The position numbers were made by a program, and so were the translations under genes. From NCBI GenBank assembly GCA_016786465.1, contig JAEUWC010000008.1, positions 62,001 through 126,000 on the forward strand: DNA of 64,000 nt. The letters run 5' to 3'. Each line of letters starts with the position of its first letter. Position 1 is the stretch's first letter. Source of the stretch: Bdellovibrionales bacterium. Its GTDB lineage: Bacteria; Bdellovibrionota; UBA1018. Under the pieces are notes generated by a model. That model saw nothing but the letters and a program-made list of their open reading frames with translations. It was not told where the DNA came from and did no database searches. Positions 3 through 38,476 of this stretch are shown here, one piece after another.

Positions 3-1211
3 CGAGAAAAATTCACATCAATTGTCACTGTAGTGATCATCGGCGGATTGGCCCTGGTCTTCATCATTTCGGGGATGTTTACCCCCAGTCGGACACGCGG
101 AATGTCGGACGCGGCCGTTGCCGCCGTCGTGAACGGTGACCCAATCAATTTGCCGGAATTTAGCCGCGCCGTGAATCAGCGCTTGGAAATGTACCGCTCG
201 ATGATGGGTGGCAAGATTACCGAAGCTCAGCTGAAGCAAATGCGAATTCGAGAAGGCGTCATCGAAGGAATGATTTCAGAAAAGTTGGCCAAGCAGGCCG
301 CCGAAAAAGCGGGCCTAGCGGGCAGTGACGAAGAAGTTCGGGAAACCATCCGAAAGTATCCGGCTTTTCAGAAAGACGGGCGCTTTGACGCGGCCACCTA
401 TAAATTGGTTCTTCAACAAAACCAGCTGACTCCGGGCGGTTTTGAAAAAATGGTTCGTGACGGCGCGTCGGCTCAAAGCTGGCAACGCTATTTTGCGCAC
501 CGAGTCCGGACTTCTGAAAAGGAAGTCGAAAATGAATTCCTGATCAGCAATGACAAACGCAATATCAAGTACGTCCTGTTGACCACGGAAAACGGCCGCA
601 AAGGTGTTCAAGTTCCGACTGCTGAAATCGAAAAGTTCCTGAAGGACCCTTCCAAGCTTTCGATTGCAAAATCGCAGTTTGAATTCAAAAAGACGCAAGA
701 ATTCAAAGGAAAGACCTTTGATCAAGTGAAGGAAGAAATCGCAAGATCGACGATCGCTTCCGAAAAGTTAGACGACATCAAGAAGGCCATCGAAGCTGCC
801 GCGGCTGAAGCCGTTTCGAAGCTTCAGGTCGCAAAGTCTGCCGACGCAGCTTTGAATGCAGCCCTAAAGCGCTATGGCGCCGAAGTGAAAGAAACGGGAC
901 TGGTCAGCCGACTGAATCCTTATCTTCCTGGAATCGGTGAAGCGAAGGATCTGTTGGCAGACGCGTTTGCCGCTGATTCTCCGATTAACGGAAAAGCAAA
1001 AAAGTATGTTTCCGGTGCATGGACACTGGTTGCGGTTTTGATCGACACCAAGAAACCGGATTTGTCGCAGCTTTCAAAAGAACGTGAAAAGATTTTGAAG
1101 CAGTTAAGCTTCCGAAAAGAACGCGAGCTTTATGAAGCGTGGATGAAGAAATTTCGTGAGAAGTCCAGCATCGACCTGAACACGGCGGTGATCAGCGGGA
1201 GCGAAACCTAA
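3..1211 (+). CDS. PpiD-like periplasmic chaperone (SurA_N domain), 5'-truncated by window edge
   Basis: The reading frame is open to the first bases of the window, so the true start lies upstream; the GTG at 33 falls inside the membrane segment and is not the start. The visible protein begins with a basic stretch and one hydrophobic helix (V-T-V-V-I-I-G-G-L-A-L-V-F-I-I), the signal anchor typical of PpiD. A SurA_N-type helical region follows (NGDPINLPEFSRAV, then IREGVIEGMISEKL). In the family this architecture is an inner-membrane-anchored chaperone that acts on outer-membrane proteins in the periplasm. I see no convincing parvulin PPIase domain between the SurA_N part and the C-terminal helices; only about 60-70 residues fill that place. 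The next gene, a lipoprotein, starts directly after the stop codon. Confidence 0.75.
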   Translation, partial: REKFTSIVTVVIIGGLALVFIISGMFTPSRTRGMSDAAVAAVVNGDPINLPEFSRAVNQRLEMYRSMMGGKITEAQLKQMRIREGVIEGMISEKLAKQAAEKAGLAGSDEEVRETIRKYPAFQKDGRFDAATYKLVLQQNQLTPGGFEKMVRDGASAQSWQRYFAHRVRTSEKEVENEFLISNDKRNIKYVLLTTENGRKGVQVPTAEIEKFLKDPSKLSIAKSQFEFKKTQEFKGKTFDQVKEEIARSTIASEKLDDIKKAIEAAAAEAVSKLQVAKSADAALNAALKRYGAEVKETGLVSRLNPYLPGIGEAKDLLADAFAADSPINGKAKKYVSGAWTLVAVLIDTKKPDLSQLSKEREKILKQLSFRKERELYEAWMKKFREKSSIDLNTAVISGSET

Positions 1212-1934
1212 TTGAAAAAACTGATCTGGATCTTGGGAATGATTGCTGTGGCTGCTTTAGGACTAGCGGCCTGCATTTTCCAGGATCGGGTACCGGCCAA
1301 TCAGGGGCGTCGGTACCAGGGCCTTGAAGTTGAAAAGACCACAGAAAGGTTTTTGGAAGAAAACGGGATGGATTTTTCCACCTACGTTCCCAGCATGCGT
1401 TCGCTGGAAGAATGCCCGGAAAGCTATTCTCGGATGTTGGACACCTACCTGACTTCGGGTCGGCCTGACGAAGTTTTTCAAAAGTTCATCCAGCTTTCCC
1501 CGCTGAAAGCCTGGAATGGGTTTGCTCAGTTCGATCTTCTTTACGATCGTAAGACGGCCAGGGCCTATGACCGAAATACAGTTCAGTTTCCTGAAATGTC
1601 GACGGGACAGATTTATATTTTGAAACTGAAGATTGCCCCTGGGTTGAATATTCCCGTGGCTTTTGAATTTGTACAGGTCGATCCCAAGAAGCTTCAACTG
1701 TCGTTCAGTTATCTGACGACGAACAAATCACGTGGAATTCAGCAAATCACTTTTTTGGAAGATGGTCTCGAAGCCGGCAAAGTCAAAGGCGTTCGCGTAA
1801 ATCACATCAGTTGCTATTCGTCCGGATCAGATTTTCGCGATCAGCGTCTTTATCCGCGCTTTCATAGAAAGATGCTGGATAACTTTTACGAAAACGCTTT
1901 CGCAAATATCCAGGGAAAGCCCGTCGGGAACTAA
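1212..1934 (+). CDS. Putative lipoprotein of unknown function
   Basis: The start is a TTG immediately after the upstream stop codon, with GGGAG about 9 nt before it. The N-terminus is a basic MKK, a hydrophobic core and the lipobox G-L-A-A-C, so an exported lipoprotein of about 220 mature residues is predicted. The rest is a globular, mixed-charge sequence with two further cysteines (ECPES and SCYSS) and no domain I can name. It is surely co-transcribed with the PpiD-like chaperone gene, which suggests an envelope role. Its stop overlaps the stop of the convergent SGNH hydrolase by 4 nt. Confidence 0.7.
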   Translation: MKKLIWILGMIAVAALGLAACIFQDRVPANQGRRYQGLEVEKTTERFLEENGMDFSTYVPSMRSLEECPESYSRMLDTYLTSGRPDEVFQKFIQLSPLKAWNGFAQFDLLYDRKTARAYDRNTVQFPEMSTGQIYILKLKIAPGLNIPVAFEFVQVDPKKLQLSFSYLTTNKSRGIQQITFLEDGLEAGKVKGVRVNHISCYSSGSDFRDQRLYPRFHRKMLDNFYENAFANIQGKPVGN

Positions 1935-20520: not shown

Positions 20521-20581
20521 AGGGCGAGCCGAAAGGAACGGACGAGCGAAACGCGCGTCCCGAGTTTAATGCGCTCGCCCT
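20521..20581. repeat. Nested palindrome (9-bp outer stem, 8-bp inner hairpin)
   Basis: AGGGCGAGC (20521-20529) pairs perfectly with GCTCGCCCT (20573-20581). Inside is a second hairpin at 20540-20560: GGACG/CGTCC, an A-G mismatch and GCG/CGC around AAA. The sequence next to the outer stem, GAGCCGAAA on the left and AATGCGCT on the right, also occurs around the loops of the 40-bp repeats at 36970-37130. It sits in the divergent region between metG and an alpha/beta hydrolase gene, 12 nt before the latter's start. There is no T-run, so it is not a terminator. Confidence 0.55.
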
Positions 20582-27426: not shown

Positions 27427-27583
27427 GCTGGTTAAGCCCCCCTAACCGATAGCACCGGGTCAGCCGTGATGCGCTTACCCGGACCAAATGGTAGGTCGAC
27501 TGTGTCGCAAGCCCTATTCCTTGGCAAGAAAATCCTTGGAATTTTGGCGCGGCCTTGGGTGGCGCCGGTCAGGGTCGGTTTTC

Positions 27584-34169: not shown

Positions 34170-36878
34170 TTAGGTATAGGCCGAAAAATCAGACTTCACT
34201 TGGGCCAGGCGATTCAAAGCTTGTAGTGGCGTCATTTCGTCAATCTTCAAGTCTTGAATTTCTTGAAGCTTGGATTGAAGGGTTTCCAGTTCCTGGATTT
34301 TTTCGCGAAGCTGAGATTGAAGCGAATTCAGTTGGGCAAGGTCTTCGTCAGCGCGAGAAGGTTCGGCCAGGGCTGAAAGGAAATCCATTTGCGCCGTCGG
34401 AGCGTCGTTTTTCGCGATCCGGGATTTTTCCAGGTCTTTTAAAACCTTCCAGGCGCGATCGATGACGGATTTCGGAAGTCCGGCAAGGCTGGCGACTTGA
34501 ACGCCAAAGCTTTCATTTGCTCGCCCCGATCGAAGTTCATATAAAAAGCGTAGGTCATTCTTGCCTTTGGAACTTTCAACCGCAACATGCGCATTTCTAA
34601 GTCCCAGTTGCTTGCCTTCCAGTTCCGTCAGTTCGTGATAATGGGTTGCAAAAAGCGTCCGCGCGCGAATCTTTCCGCAGATCCATTCCAGCGTTGCCCA
34701 AGCCACCGACATTCCGTCAAAGGTTGAAGTCCCGCGGCCAATTTCATCTAGAATCAAAAGTGATTTGCGATTGGCGTAATTTAGGATGTGCGCCAGTTCC
34801 GTCATTTCCACCATGAACGTCGATTGTCCGCGGCTAATCGCATCCTGGGCACCAATTCGGGTGTAAAGCGATTCCACTATTCCGATGCGTGCAGATTCTG
34901 CAGGAACGGCTGCGCCCATCTGAGCAAGCACGACGATCAACGCGACTTGGCGCATGACCGTCGATTTACCGCCCATATTGGGCCCGGTGATCAATAGAAT
35001 TTGGGATTCCTGGTTTCCGCTAGACCCCAAAAGCTGAGTGTCGTTAGGAACGAACCGGCCGCCCAGTTGTTGGTCGACCATTGGATGTCGGCCCTTGCGG
35101 ATGTCTAGATCCAGCGAAGTGTCCAAATTGGGTTGAACAAATCCTGGGCGATCCAAAAGATGACTTAGGCTTTGAAGGCAATCCAAAGCGGCAACAGCTT
35201 GGGACGCTTCCAGGATCCAGGAAATTTGGTCGCTGATTTCTTCAATCAGTTGCTCGAAAAGTTTTCTTTCTAAGGCGATTTGTTTGGCTTCGGCATGAAC
35301 GATTTCGTCTTCGAACTTTTTCAGTTCTTCGGTGAAAAAACGTTCGGCGCCAACCGTGGTTTGCTTTCGCTGGTAATGTGCAGGAACGTTTTTTAAGTGT
35401 GTGCTGGTGACTTCAATATAATAGCCAAAAACGCGGTTGAATCGAACTTTCAGGCTAGGGATCCCCGTTTGGGTTCGTTCGCGTGTTTCCAGTTCCACAA
35501 GCCAGTTAGAACCGTCTTGATTGATTCGAATCAAGCGATCCAGTTCTGGATCTGTTCCCAGTTGAAAGACTCCCGCTTCTTTGTGGGTCAGTGGGGCTTC
35601 TTCTTTTTGGGTCTTTAAGATCTTTGCCGTCAGTTCGGCCAGGTGACTTTGGGCATTTGAAATTCGGGCCGCGATTTCCTGAAGCCGCTGTGAACGGGCA
35701 TTCGCCAAGATCAACGGAATATCTGCCACGCGATTCAGACTTTTGGCCAAAGCATAAGTGTCGCGCGGATTCGCCAACCGTGTCGTGATGCGGCCGGTGA
35801 TTCGTTCCAGATCATAGACTTCGGATAATTTTTCCATCACTCGCGCGCGGGTGTTGGATGTTTCGGCCAGTTCGGCAGTTGCAAGCTGGCGCGCTTGGAT
35901 TTCTTCAAGATCAATTCGGGGTTCCGTCACCCAGCGCTTCAGTAGGCGCGAGCCAAGGCTTGTCTTCGTTTGGTTGACGAAGTCGTACAGGTTCGGCGTC
36001 CCGTCGGGTTTGGGAAGTAGATCCAAATGAGAAATCGTTTGTGGGCCAAAGACCAGGGTGCTTGGGCGATCCAAGGCTTCGGGAAGCGCGATGTGGGCTA
36101 ATACTTCTACGCCCTGGCTTTTTGCGGCGTATTTGCAAAGGATCGCCATGGCTGGAATCGATTGCGCGATCGGAAAAAGAACATCCAAGATCGCAAGCCC
36201 AAATTGCTTCTTTAGGAATTCAGCCGCTGCCGCTTCCGTCAGATAGTTCGAAGGAAGATCTTCTAACAAAACGTCTTTTCGCGCACGAAGGGTCGAGGCC
36301 GCATCGAGCGGAAGTTTTTCGCCGATACGAAGAAAATGGCGGATCGGAAGTTGGGAAAGTTCCAGGCAAAGTCGGGTCGCTGCAATGGGCTGGCTTAGGC
36401 GTGTTTGTCCGGTCGATGCGTCCAAAAGCGCCAAGATCCAAGTGCCATCGCTGGAAGCGTGGGCAGGGTCGACCGGGATCGCGGTGGCTAAAAAAGCCAT
36501 TTCGTTTCCGTCAGTTTCAAATTGGATGGCCGGAGTAAAAACCCGCGTGATGGCACGCTTGACGATCGACTTGGATCCTTGGCCGGGTTCCATTTCGCCT
36601 TCCATTTGTTCGCCGATGGCGACTTTCCGGCCAGCTTTCAAAAGTTTTTGAATGTAGCCTTGAACACTGTGGTGGGGGACGCCAGCCATTGGGGTGGGGT
36701 TGGCCTTGCCCTTGTCCCGCGAAGTCAGTGTGATTTCCAAGATCTTCGACGCGTCGATCGCGTCTTCAGCGAAAACTTCGTAAAAGTCACCCATTCGGAA
36801 AAGCAAGATTGCATCAGCGACTTGGGACTTTAGATCCCAGTACTGCTTCATCAGGGGTGAAAGATTCGTTTCGCTCAT
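34170..36878 (-). CDS. mutS: DNA mismatch repair protein MutS
   Basis: Start M-S-E-T-N-L-S-P-L-M-K-Q-Y-W (902 residues). The mismatch-binding domain follows with F-R-M-G-D-F-Y-E-V-F (the Phe-x-Glu motif). The ATPase domain has I-T-G-P-N-M-G-G-K-S-T near residue 629, then S-T-F-M-V-E-M-T-E-L, L-I-L-D-E-I-G-R-G-T-S-T-F-D-G and F-A-T-H-Y-H-E-L-T. MutS binds mismatches and recruits MutL. A longer in-frame extension exists upstream but would translate terminator repeats and is rejected. No ribosome binding site is visible; the gene lies behind several terminators so it needs its own promoter (a weak one at 36891-36919). Confidence 0.96.
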   Translation of the reverse strand: MSETNLSPLMKQYWDLKSQVADAILLFRMGDFYEVFAEDAIDASKILEITLTSRDKGKANPTPMAGVPHHSVQGYIQKLLKAGRKVAIGEQMEGEMEPGQGSKSIVKRAITRVFTPAIQFETDGNEMAFLATAIPVDPAHASSDGTWILALLDASTGQTRLSQPIAATRLCLELSQLPIRHFLRIGEKLPLDAASTLRARKDVLLEDLPSNYLTEAAAAEFLKKQFGLAILDVLFPIAQSIPAMAILCKYAAKSQGVEVLAHIALPEALDRPSTLVFGPQTISHLDLLPKPDGTPNLYDFVNQTKTSLGSRLLKRWVTEPRIDLEEIQARQLATAELAETSNTRARVMEKLSEVYDLERITGRITTRLANPRDTYALAKSLNRVADIPLILANARSQRLQEIAARISNAQSHLAELTAKILKTQKEEAPLTHKEAGVFQLGTDPELDRLIRINQDGSNWLVELETRERTQTGIPSLKVRFNRVFGYYIEVTSTHLKNVPAHYQRKQTTVGAERFFTEELKKFEDEIVHAEAKQIALERKLFEQLIEEISDQISWILEASQAVAALDCLQSLSHLLDRPGFVQPNLDTSLDLDIRKGRHPMVDQQLGGRFVPNDTQLLGSSGNQESQILLITGPNMGGKSTVMRQVALIVVLAQMGAAVPAESARIGIVESLYTRIGAQDAISRGQSTFMVEMTELAHILNYANRKSLLILDEIGRGTSTFDGMSVAWATLEWICGKIRARTLFATHYHELTELEGKQLGLRNAHVAVESSKGKNDLRFLYELRSGRANESFGVQVASLAGLPKSVIDRAWKVLKDLEKSRIAKNDAPTAQMDFLSALAEPSRADEDLAQLNSLQSQLREKIQELETLQSKLQEIQDLKIDEMTPLQALNRLAQVKSDFSAYT

Positions 36879-36890
36879 GGGTTTGGGAAC

Positions 36891-36919
36891 GCGGTACCAG
36901 CTTGGGGGGCTTCGATCAA
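36891..36919 (-). promoter_or_regulatory. Weak promoter candidate for mutS
   Basis: On the minus strand TTGATC and TACCGC are 17 nt apart, ending 12 nt before the mutS start. The -35 is good, the -10 poor. I list it because mutS lies downstream of strong terminators and must have a promoter close by. Confidence 0.22.
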
Positions 36920-36930
36920 GGCTTCTAAAG

Positions 36931-36949
36931 ACCCGCGCCAGGCGCGGGT
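36931..36949 (-). terminator. GC-rich hairpin at the end of the terminator region
   Basis: ACCCGCGCC and GGCGCGGGT are perfect inverted repeats separated by one base, so the real stem is 7-8 bp. On the minus strand only TCTTT follows. It is the last hairpin before mutS and is unlike the 40-bp repeats in sequence. Confidence 0.4.
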
Positions 36950-36969
36950 TCGCGGACGGAAAAAAAGAC

Positions 36970-37130
36970 CCGGCCGAGCCGAAACGTGCTTGGCCGGAAT
37001 TAAAAAAACCCGGCCGAGCCGAAATGCGCTTGGCCGGAATTAAAAAGACCCGGCCGAGCCGAAATGCGCTTGGCCGGAATAAAAAAGAGCCGGCCGAGCC
37101 GAAATGCGCTTGGCCGGAATAAAAAAGAGC
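36970..37130 (-). repeat. Tandem array of four 40-bp terminator-like hairpin repeats
   Basis: Four units with an exact 40-nt period start at 36971, 37011, 37051 and 37091; a truncated fifth starts at 37131. Each has arms CCGGCCGAGC and GCTTGGCCGG (10 bp, one G-T) around the loop CGAAATGC (CGAAACGT in the first). Between stems is an A-run which on the minus strand becomes a run of 5-7 T right after the stem. Read from the outer-membrane protein gene towards mutS, every unit therefore has the form of an intrinsic terminator. There are no unique spacers, so this is not a CRISPR array. Confidence 0.85.
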
Positions 37131-37175
37131 CGGCCGGCCGAAAAAGCGGGGGGATGCTTTGTCGGCCGGCCGGCT
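37128..37175 (-). terminator. Strong intrinsic terminator of the outer-membrane protein gene
   Basis: AGCCGGCCGGCCGA and TCGGCCGGCCGGCT are a perfect 14-bp inverted repeat, with an inner AAAGC/GCTTT stem in the 20-nt loop. On the minus strand the stem is followed by C and six T. It starts about 59 nt after the stop of the outer-membrane protein gene and fuses with the first 40-bp repeat unit. It is the first of at least five consecutive terminators. Confidence 0.8.
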
Positions 37176-37233
37176 CGGGACTTGGGGCGCTCGGGTTGCG
37201 AGGCCCACAAGTCGTTTACTTAAGTCGAGCTCA

Positions 37234-38325
37234 TTAGAAGATCACGCCGTTGATCCAAAGACCGACACTTGCGGTGTGGGTCCATGGCATGACGGGGAAT
37301 GCTGCTGCATTCGGGGTCTTCTTGCGCTTTGCAATGGTTTGGTCATTTGCGACGCGCTCGCGAAGACCGTCATCCAAAGGCGTCGAAAAACGGATGTGTG
37401 GGTACAAGGTGAAGTGCTTGCTGATCTTGTAGGTGTATCCCATTTCAACCGGAGCAAACCAGCGCTGGAACGACTGACCCGAGTTCTTGCGAATGTCCAA
37501 CGTCATGCCTGCGCGAAGACCTTGATTCTCGGACAATGCATAGTTGATCGAAGGGTTCGCCACGAACAGGATCTGTGGCTTCGTTCCGGTCACGTCTTGG
37601 GGTGCCAAGGCGTCAGCATCGCGGTAGATGAAAACGCGTGGGGAAACCAGCGCAAACACCGACCACTTCGAACCGGCCTTGCGGTAGTTGAAGCTAGAAA
37701 ACAACCCTGGGTTGATGATTTGGGTCCGCGCCTGAGGAATCTGTCCGATTCCAGGGACGTCCGTGTTGAAGGCTCCGCTCAATGACCAATCCGCACCTTT
37801 CAAAAGGGTGCCAGAAATTCCGATACGGCCGCCTTGATCGCGGAAAGTGATGAAGCCCGGTTCGGTTGGGCGGGTTGAATCAAAAATCTGTTGAAGGCGG
37901 AACTGATAGTCCAAACCGATCCGGTCTGTCAGTTTGTAACGAACCGAAAGATTGGTCCACATGCTGATGCCTGAATCGCTGGCATAGCCAGTCGAACTGC
38001 TGACGGGTAGGTGGGCCGGTTGACCAAATCCTGGTCCGTCAATAAAAGTGAAGTAGTTCGCACCAAAGCCACCTAGAAACTTCTTTAGGCCGCTTTGCTT
38101 GATGCTGGCTTCCGAAGTGGTTGCGGCAGGAGCCGAAGCTGCCTGCGCATCTTTTTCCACCTTCTGTTCAATGGCGGCTGCTGCTGGCAGGTTGGTTTCG
38201 ATTTTTTCTGCCGATGCTTGGCTGGTTTCGATTTGGTCAGTAGCCGGCTTTGCTTTGATGGTGGTTGCATTTGCTGCTGTAGCGGCAAAGGCGGAAATGA
38301 CGAAGGCCCCTAAGATACGATTCAT
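37234..38325 (-). CDS. Outer-membrane beta-barrel protein (porin-like)
   Basis: The signal peptide (I-L-G-A-F-V-I-S-A-F-A-A-T-A-A-N-A) is followed by a roughly 60-residue Ala/Gln/Glu-rich region, then a beta-barrel-like part. Alternating strands such as W-T-N-L-S-V-R-Y-K-L, I-G-L-D-Y-Q-F-R-L-Q-Q and F-T-L-Y-P-H-I-R-F-S are seen, and the C-terminus A-S-V-G-L-W-I-N-G-V-I-F ends in the Phe typical of BAM substrates. The Ala-rich N-terminal part could be a periplasmic linker. The family is not recognised further. It has a sigma-54 promoter and a sigma-70-like promoter upstream and is followed by a stack of terminators, which suggests high or tightly controlled expression. Confidence 0.75.
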   Translation of the reverse strand: MNRILGAFVISAFAATAANATTIKAKPATDQIETSQASAEKIETNLPAAAAIEQKVEKDAQAASAPAATTSEASIKQSGLKKFLGGFGANYFTFIDGPGFGQPAHLPVSSSTGYASDSGISMWTNLSVRYKLTDRIGLDYQFRLQQIFDSTRPTEPGFITFRDQGGRIGISGTLLKGADWSLSGAFNTDVPGIGQIPQARTQIINPGLFSSFNYRKAGSKWSVFALVSPRVFIYRDADALAPQDVTGTKPQILFVANPSINYALSENQGLRAGMTLDIRKNSGQSFQRWFAPVEMGYTYKISKHFTLYPHIRFSTPLDDGLRERVANDQTIAKRKKTPNAAAFPVMPWTHTASVGLWINGVIF

Positions 38326-38460: not shown

Positions 38461-38476
38461 AGCAAGCCCGGTGCCA
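38461..38476 (-). promoter_or_regulatory. Sigma-54 (-24/-12) promoter
   Basis: On the minus strand TGGCACCGGGCTTGCT, preceded by T, has all defined consensus bases except the G after TGGCAC; GG and GC are 10 nt apart. The expected start at about 38450 gives a leader of about 125 nt for the outer-membrane protein gene. It lies in the divergent 274-nt region whose other side leads to the isochorismatase-like gene. Confidence 0.65.

Follow-up and report, generated by a model that had tools for sequence, protein, structure and literature searches.

Why would a bacterium repeat one intrinsic terminator four times in exact register? In a 64,000-nucleotide stretch of the Bdellovibrionales bacterium genome (contig JAEUWC010000008.1, positions 62,001 to 126,000; hereafter the window), four 40-bp units, each a hairpin with a T-tract, lie at 36965-37124, with a porin-like gene on one side and mutS on the other, the two genes being encoded on the minus strand. 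Very probably, this array is a local four-copy, head-to-tail expansion of a dispersed, genome-specific repeat resembling repetitive extragenic palindromes (REPs), and not a purpose-built terminator array. Along the minus strand the order is porin-like gene, primary terminator, four hairpin-plus-T units, an unrelated hairpin and mutS, with the following elements between the two genes:

37127..37176, minus strand: primary intrinsic terminator of the porin-like gene, 15-bp G+C stem, folding free energy (dG) -43.6, T6 at 37121-37126
37085..37124, plus strand: tandem unit, hairpin core 37092-37115
37045..37084, plus strand: tandem unit, hairpin core 37052-37075
37005..37044, plus strand: tandem unit, hairpin core 37012-37035
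36965..37004, plus strand: tandem unit, hairpin core 36972-36995, two changes in the loop region
36931..36949, minus strand: sixth hairpin, of unrelated sequence, 8-9 bp stem, dG -15.2, followed by CTTTAG and no T-run

Tandem Repeats Finder delimited the array at 36961-37143 (period 40, 4.6 copies, 94% matches, score 310). Together with the exact register, this bears out the four-unit, period-40 array running from behind the porin-like gene towards mutS that had been noticed in an earlier reading of the DNA (the initial annotation). The units had been called exact, which is true of the period but not of the sequences, which differ at 1-4 of 40 positions between units. Adjacent units are the most alike, with 1, 2 and 3 changes between neighbours, as expected from stepwise tandem duplication. 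Three of the four hairpin cores are identical, and the core at 36972 carries two changes. The sense of the element is the plus strand, while its T-tract acts on the minus strand. On this transcribed strand each unit ends in 5-7 T as annotated, but its stem is not a continuous 10 bp: it consists of 6+3 bp with an A.C mismatch (dG -17.4 to -18.5). The plus-strand fold contains a single G.U but no mismatch; at dG -25 it is the more stable of the two, and its stem reaches 14 bp where AATT flanks. For the primary terminator the annotated T6 was correct and the stem proved slightly longer, 15 instead of 14 bp; its tail GGCCGGCTCTTTTTTATT recurs at the end of the first unit's hairpin. All five stem-plus-T elements do point from the porin-like gene to mutS on the minus strand, and the sixth hairpin is present as described. 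A G+C-rich hairpin directly before a U-tract on the transcribed strand, the hallmark of intrinsic terminators, is found in the primary terminator and in all four units. The whole array region folds far better than shuffled sequence (z = -7.4, 0/100 shuffles), and an Rfam scan of it brought no family near its gathering score.

The same hairpin is dispersed through the genome. Searching with the 26-nt core at up to 3 mismatches gave 11 genome matches, only 4 of them in the array, and none for the reversed control; the 15-nt inner core at up to 2 mismatches gave 78 matches versus 4 for the reversed control. A covariance model built from 30 copies found ~63 copies at an expect value (E) < 5e-4 in the 3.63-Mb genome, and a few more where chance begins, from which we estimate a family of about 65-75 copies. 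Their consensus is GGNYGAGC[C/A]GAAATGCGCT[C/T]RNCC, and the element is a 24-nt hairpin with an 8-bp stem and a conserved 8-nt loop, [C/A]GAAATGC; information content falls sharply outside the stem, and the flanks carry little. The outer stem covaries: 33 cells were changed on both sides compared with 5.6 ± 1.9 in shuffles, none of 500 being as high, and with slid-partner controls the counts were far lower and the pattern was lost. Related copies can inflate such counts, as the tool itself warns, and the alignment was fitted to the model. However, the slid controls, the third stem pair, seen as GC, CG, AU and UA, and the finding of the same hairpin conservation on the ungapped 30-copy alignment make conservation of the hairpin the clear reading. 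Nearly every wobble pair reads as G.U on the sense strand, and one stem pair is GU in 14 cases. A further copy in the window is degenerate:

27457..27480, plus strand: degenerate family copy GGGTCAGCCGTGATGCGCTTACCC, intergenic, 22.2 bits, E 0.00048

We examined 68 copies in context, on genome stretches fetched around them; they group into 52 sites. Of these sites 45 are intergenic, although intergenic DNA makes up 8.4% of the fetched stretches, and one more, behind tRNA-Pro, was miscalled as genic by our script. The neighbouring genes are unidirectional at 27 of the intergenic sites, convergent at 8 and divergent at 10; 16 of the 27 unidirectional sites are within 20 nt of the upstream stop, and many copies sit 8-30 nt ahead of a start codon. 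The initial annotation had suggested searching the genome for the unit, and held that finding it scattered where it cannot terminate would make it a REP-like element. That search went against its terminator proposal: ~65 copies lie at ~52 sites, on both strands and in all gene arrangements, and a T-run of at least 7 in 8 stands directly behind the hairpin at only two of the 52 sites, the mutS array and the tRNA-Pro copy. Runs of at least 6 T follow at 7 of the 52, compared with 5% of random intergenic positions. Since so few copies precede T-runs, the family as a whole is not a terminator family, and its scatter over non-terminator positions identifies it as REP-like rather than a dedicated terminator. 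Two sites deserve separate mention. At locus L109 (2409-2518), tRNA-Pro (GGG) is followed 8 nt downstream by a family copy with T9, an apparent terminator, and at L099 (2540-2566) a copy lies within the end of a sigma-factor-like reading frame, ~30 nt before the stop.

Local duplication of the element has occurred repeatedly. Multi-copy sites number eleven; each has 2-4 copies, arranged head to tail without exception at periods of 31-40 bp. The mutS array, with four, is the largest, and most of the other tandem arrays are without T-tracts. The closest inverted copy pairs are 625 and 677 bp apart. A pattern search for long nested forms gave 13 matches, mostly the known tandem arrays; two were genuine nested copies. 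The first lies in the window:

20522..20579, plus strand: nested family copy, its loop split after CGAA by 35 nt with a second, diverged hairpin

The second, at C9:11492, is an older copy whose loop is split directly behind GAA; the 32 intervening nt hold a good family hairpin. Tandem and nested copies of this sort point to a repeat that duplicates or moves at the DNA level. The family is also essentially confined to this one genome, which agrees with the species-specific occurrence of REPs: with the covariance model, 37 of 39 relatives had no match at E ≤ 0.01 and the other two had one weak match each, and 368 other genomes of the phylum gave one weak match. Viral contigs contained no exact match of the hairpin core, and a literature search for REPs in Bdellovibrio returned nothing relevant.

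These dispersed copies lend good support to the other explanation offered initially, slippage-driven expansion of a palindrome whose terminator activity is incidental. We propose that one copy ended up immediately after the terminator of the porin-like gene, and that duplication at shared GGCCGG/T-tract repeats then probably copied hairpin and T-tract together, by which the array would have acquired its terminator-like units. Capture of a T-tract and joint duplication would explain why T-tracts are present here and rare in other copies. As far as sequence can tell, the units probably stop residual read-through from the porin-like gene; terminating transcription would be a plausible but secondary role of the array, and insulation of mutS stays a conjecture. 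The copies themselves might have been spread by a Y1 (HUH) transposase-like protein of this genome acting on the folded single strand.

Five genes of the genome are Y1/HUH transposase-like and have both HxH and a Tyr. Four are IS200-like paralogs of ~190-220 amino acids (L044, L046, L047 and L048), the others being 58-65% identical to the first. The fifth, L045, is closer to known REP-associated tyrosine transposases (RAYTs), scoring 74.3 bits on NCBIfam REP_Tyr_transpos, below the cut-off of 80. This gene (1207-1863, minus strand) has perfect 21-bp inverted repeats on both flanks, reminiscent of tyrosine transposases associated with terminal inverted repeats.

Several observations weigh against the interpretation of the array as an expanded REP-like repeat. 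Only one of the five Y1 genes, L048, has copies nearby, namely two, ~250 bp upstream, on one side and in the same orientation, and a rough estimate puts the chance of such proximity at any of the five genes at ~0.05-0.2, so that it is little beyond chance. We found neither target-site duplications nor a terminal tag at family copies. Among the genomes compared, the genus is represented by this one alone, which gives no view of copy-number change, and genes around the copies were called with a simple, crude codon-usage script. Finally, copies share the direction of the genes at 21 of the 27 unidirectional sites and are antisense at 6 (p = 0.006), a bias that a purely neutral palindrome does not need.

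The neutral picture does not explain this orientation bias and the sense-strand G.U pairs, which leaves room for a role in RNA. The hairpin might be a cis-acting motif of many mRNAs whose loop, [C/A]GAAAUGC, is recognised by a protein or nuclease, the array then being a multi-site version. The 21:6 bias, the G.U wobbles with 14 GU at one pair, a loop that is conserved while the outer stem covaries, and the many copies 8-30 nt ahead of start codons would all suit such a motif. We nevertheless consider it quite unlikely, as it is absent from other genera of the family, has copies at divergent, convergent and antisense sites, reaches no Rfam gathering score and shows tandem and nested copies that look like the work of DNA-level processes; the mutS array itself is antisense to both flanking genes.

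We give a similarly low probability to a dedicated array, in which selection would have favoured the units as intrinsic terminators in series, shielding mutS from a sigma-54 gene under strong induction. The flanking features on which this depends are:

38461..38476, minus strand: sigma-54 consensus site TGGCACCGGGCTTGCT, exact match, upstream of the porin-like gene
37234..38325, minus strand: porin-like gene, 363 amino acids, with signal peptide and C-terminal Phe
34170..36878, minus strand: mutS, 902 amino acids, start ATG at 36878, Pfam MutS I, III, IV and V

The sigma-54 promoter that had been implied does have an exact consensus at this position. TGGCACCGGGCTTGCT is a predicted site that rests on the consensus match, and looser sigma-54 matches are no commoner than chance. 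No Pfam or NCBIfam family matched the porin-like product. For dedication speak this consensus, the presence in every unit of a G+C stem with 5-7 T behind it in the correct direction, the report that hairpin clusters terminate together (PMC8355165) and the apparent use of a family copy with T9 by tRNA-Pro elsewhere. On the other hand, the same hairpin stands nearly always without a T-tract at ~50 sites, as do most other tandem arrays, the transcribed strand has the A.C mismatch while the opposite strand folds better, and a 15-bp terminator already stands ahead of the units. As for the proposed insulation of mutS, the sequence makes termination plausible. A search between the array and mutS brought up no sigma-70-like promoter, so that mutS would have no visible promoter of its own if the array terminated fully. 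None of the relatives showed the porin-like gene beside mutS, and the array therefore cannot be compared at an orthologous site.

The mutS frame is open upstream across the entire array (window 36879-37208, minus strand), though a period of 40 bp is not divisible by three. Alignments of relatives' MutS begin at residues 1-7 of the 36878 start; an in-frame extension of mutS through the array was rejected, and we take the open frame as chance.

For the expanded REP-like repeat, a transposase as its mover remains a lead. Published RAYTs have REPs on both flanks (PMC2817692); with copies on one side, the link to a transposase fails this test. The surroundings of Y1 genes in relatives, inspected for REP-RAYT pairs (REPtrons), contained no recurrent hairpins. 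A motif, AATTGACATCGCTGAA, lies shortly upstream of all four Y1 paralogs (L044 1326-1341, L047 1309-1324, and matching positions of L046 and L048, minus strand). It also precedes Y1 homologs in two other families of the order (L202, L203), and in its own genome it occurs at 0-1 mismatch only upstream of the four paralogs; possible roles are those of a promoter, operator or element end. We tentatively propose, while holding it doubtful, that untagged REP-like hairpins are spread by a separate Y1 (HUH) lineage, the ~190-aa (amino acid) paralogs with upstream AATTGACATCGCTGAA, and insert into an older copy's loop right after GAA; nested copies and head-to-tail arrays would result, some later used as terminators.

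The odd terminator array is accounted for in this way without special pleading. The analysis adds an apparently undescribed, genome-specific family of palindromic repeats that forms head-to-tail clusters only and has no GTAG/CGTC tag, which most known REPs carry. It also offers a plausible route from a dispersed hairpin to a series of terminators, by capture of a neighbouring terminator's T-tract and then tandem duplication. If a Y1 enzyme does act on the element, REP mobilisation would extend beyond the GTAG type.

How does the family compare with known systems? REPs are intergenic palindromes of 20-40 bp that reach copy numbers from dozens to hundreds; they often follow a stop codon closely and are often species-specific. 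Their stems are heterogeneous, and some clusters are reiterated in tandem along with flanking DNA (PMC3733652). The family shares the general features of a short, dispersed, extragenic and species-specific palindrome, and its stop-proximal placement (16 of 27 unidirectional sites) matches the published pattern (PMC3733652), although ~63 copies at E < 5e-4 are fewer than the >100 often quoted for REPs. Unlike the GTAG and CGTC super-families, it lacks end tags (GTAG is beside 2 and CGTC beside 1 of 67 copies), and its 8-nt loop is conserved in sequence. In many known REP families most units are close neighbours of opposite orientation, and the CGTC group has a negligible share of head-tail dimers; here, in contrast to bacterial interspersed mosaic elements (BIMEs) and REP doublets forming hairpins (REPINs), all 11 multi-copy sites are direct repeats. 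Five Y1/HUH genes and an element that folds as a single-strand hairpin recall the REPtron, but only one of the five has copies, on one side instead of cognate REPs on both flanks, and L045 is flanked by 21-bp inverted repeats instead of family copies. Clustered intrinsic terminators, of which two-hairpin clusters are commonest and larger ones increasingly rare, likewise consist of several successive hairpins after a stop codon (PMC8355165); the units of the mutS array differ in being copies of each other and of a dispersed repeat.
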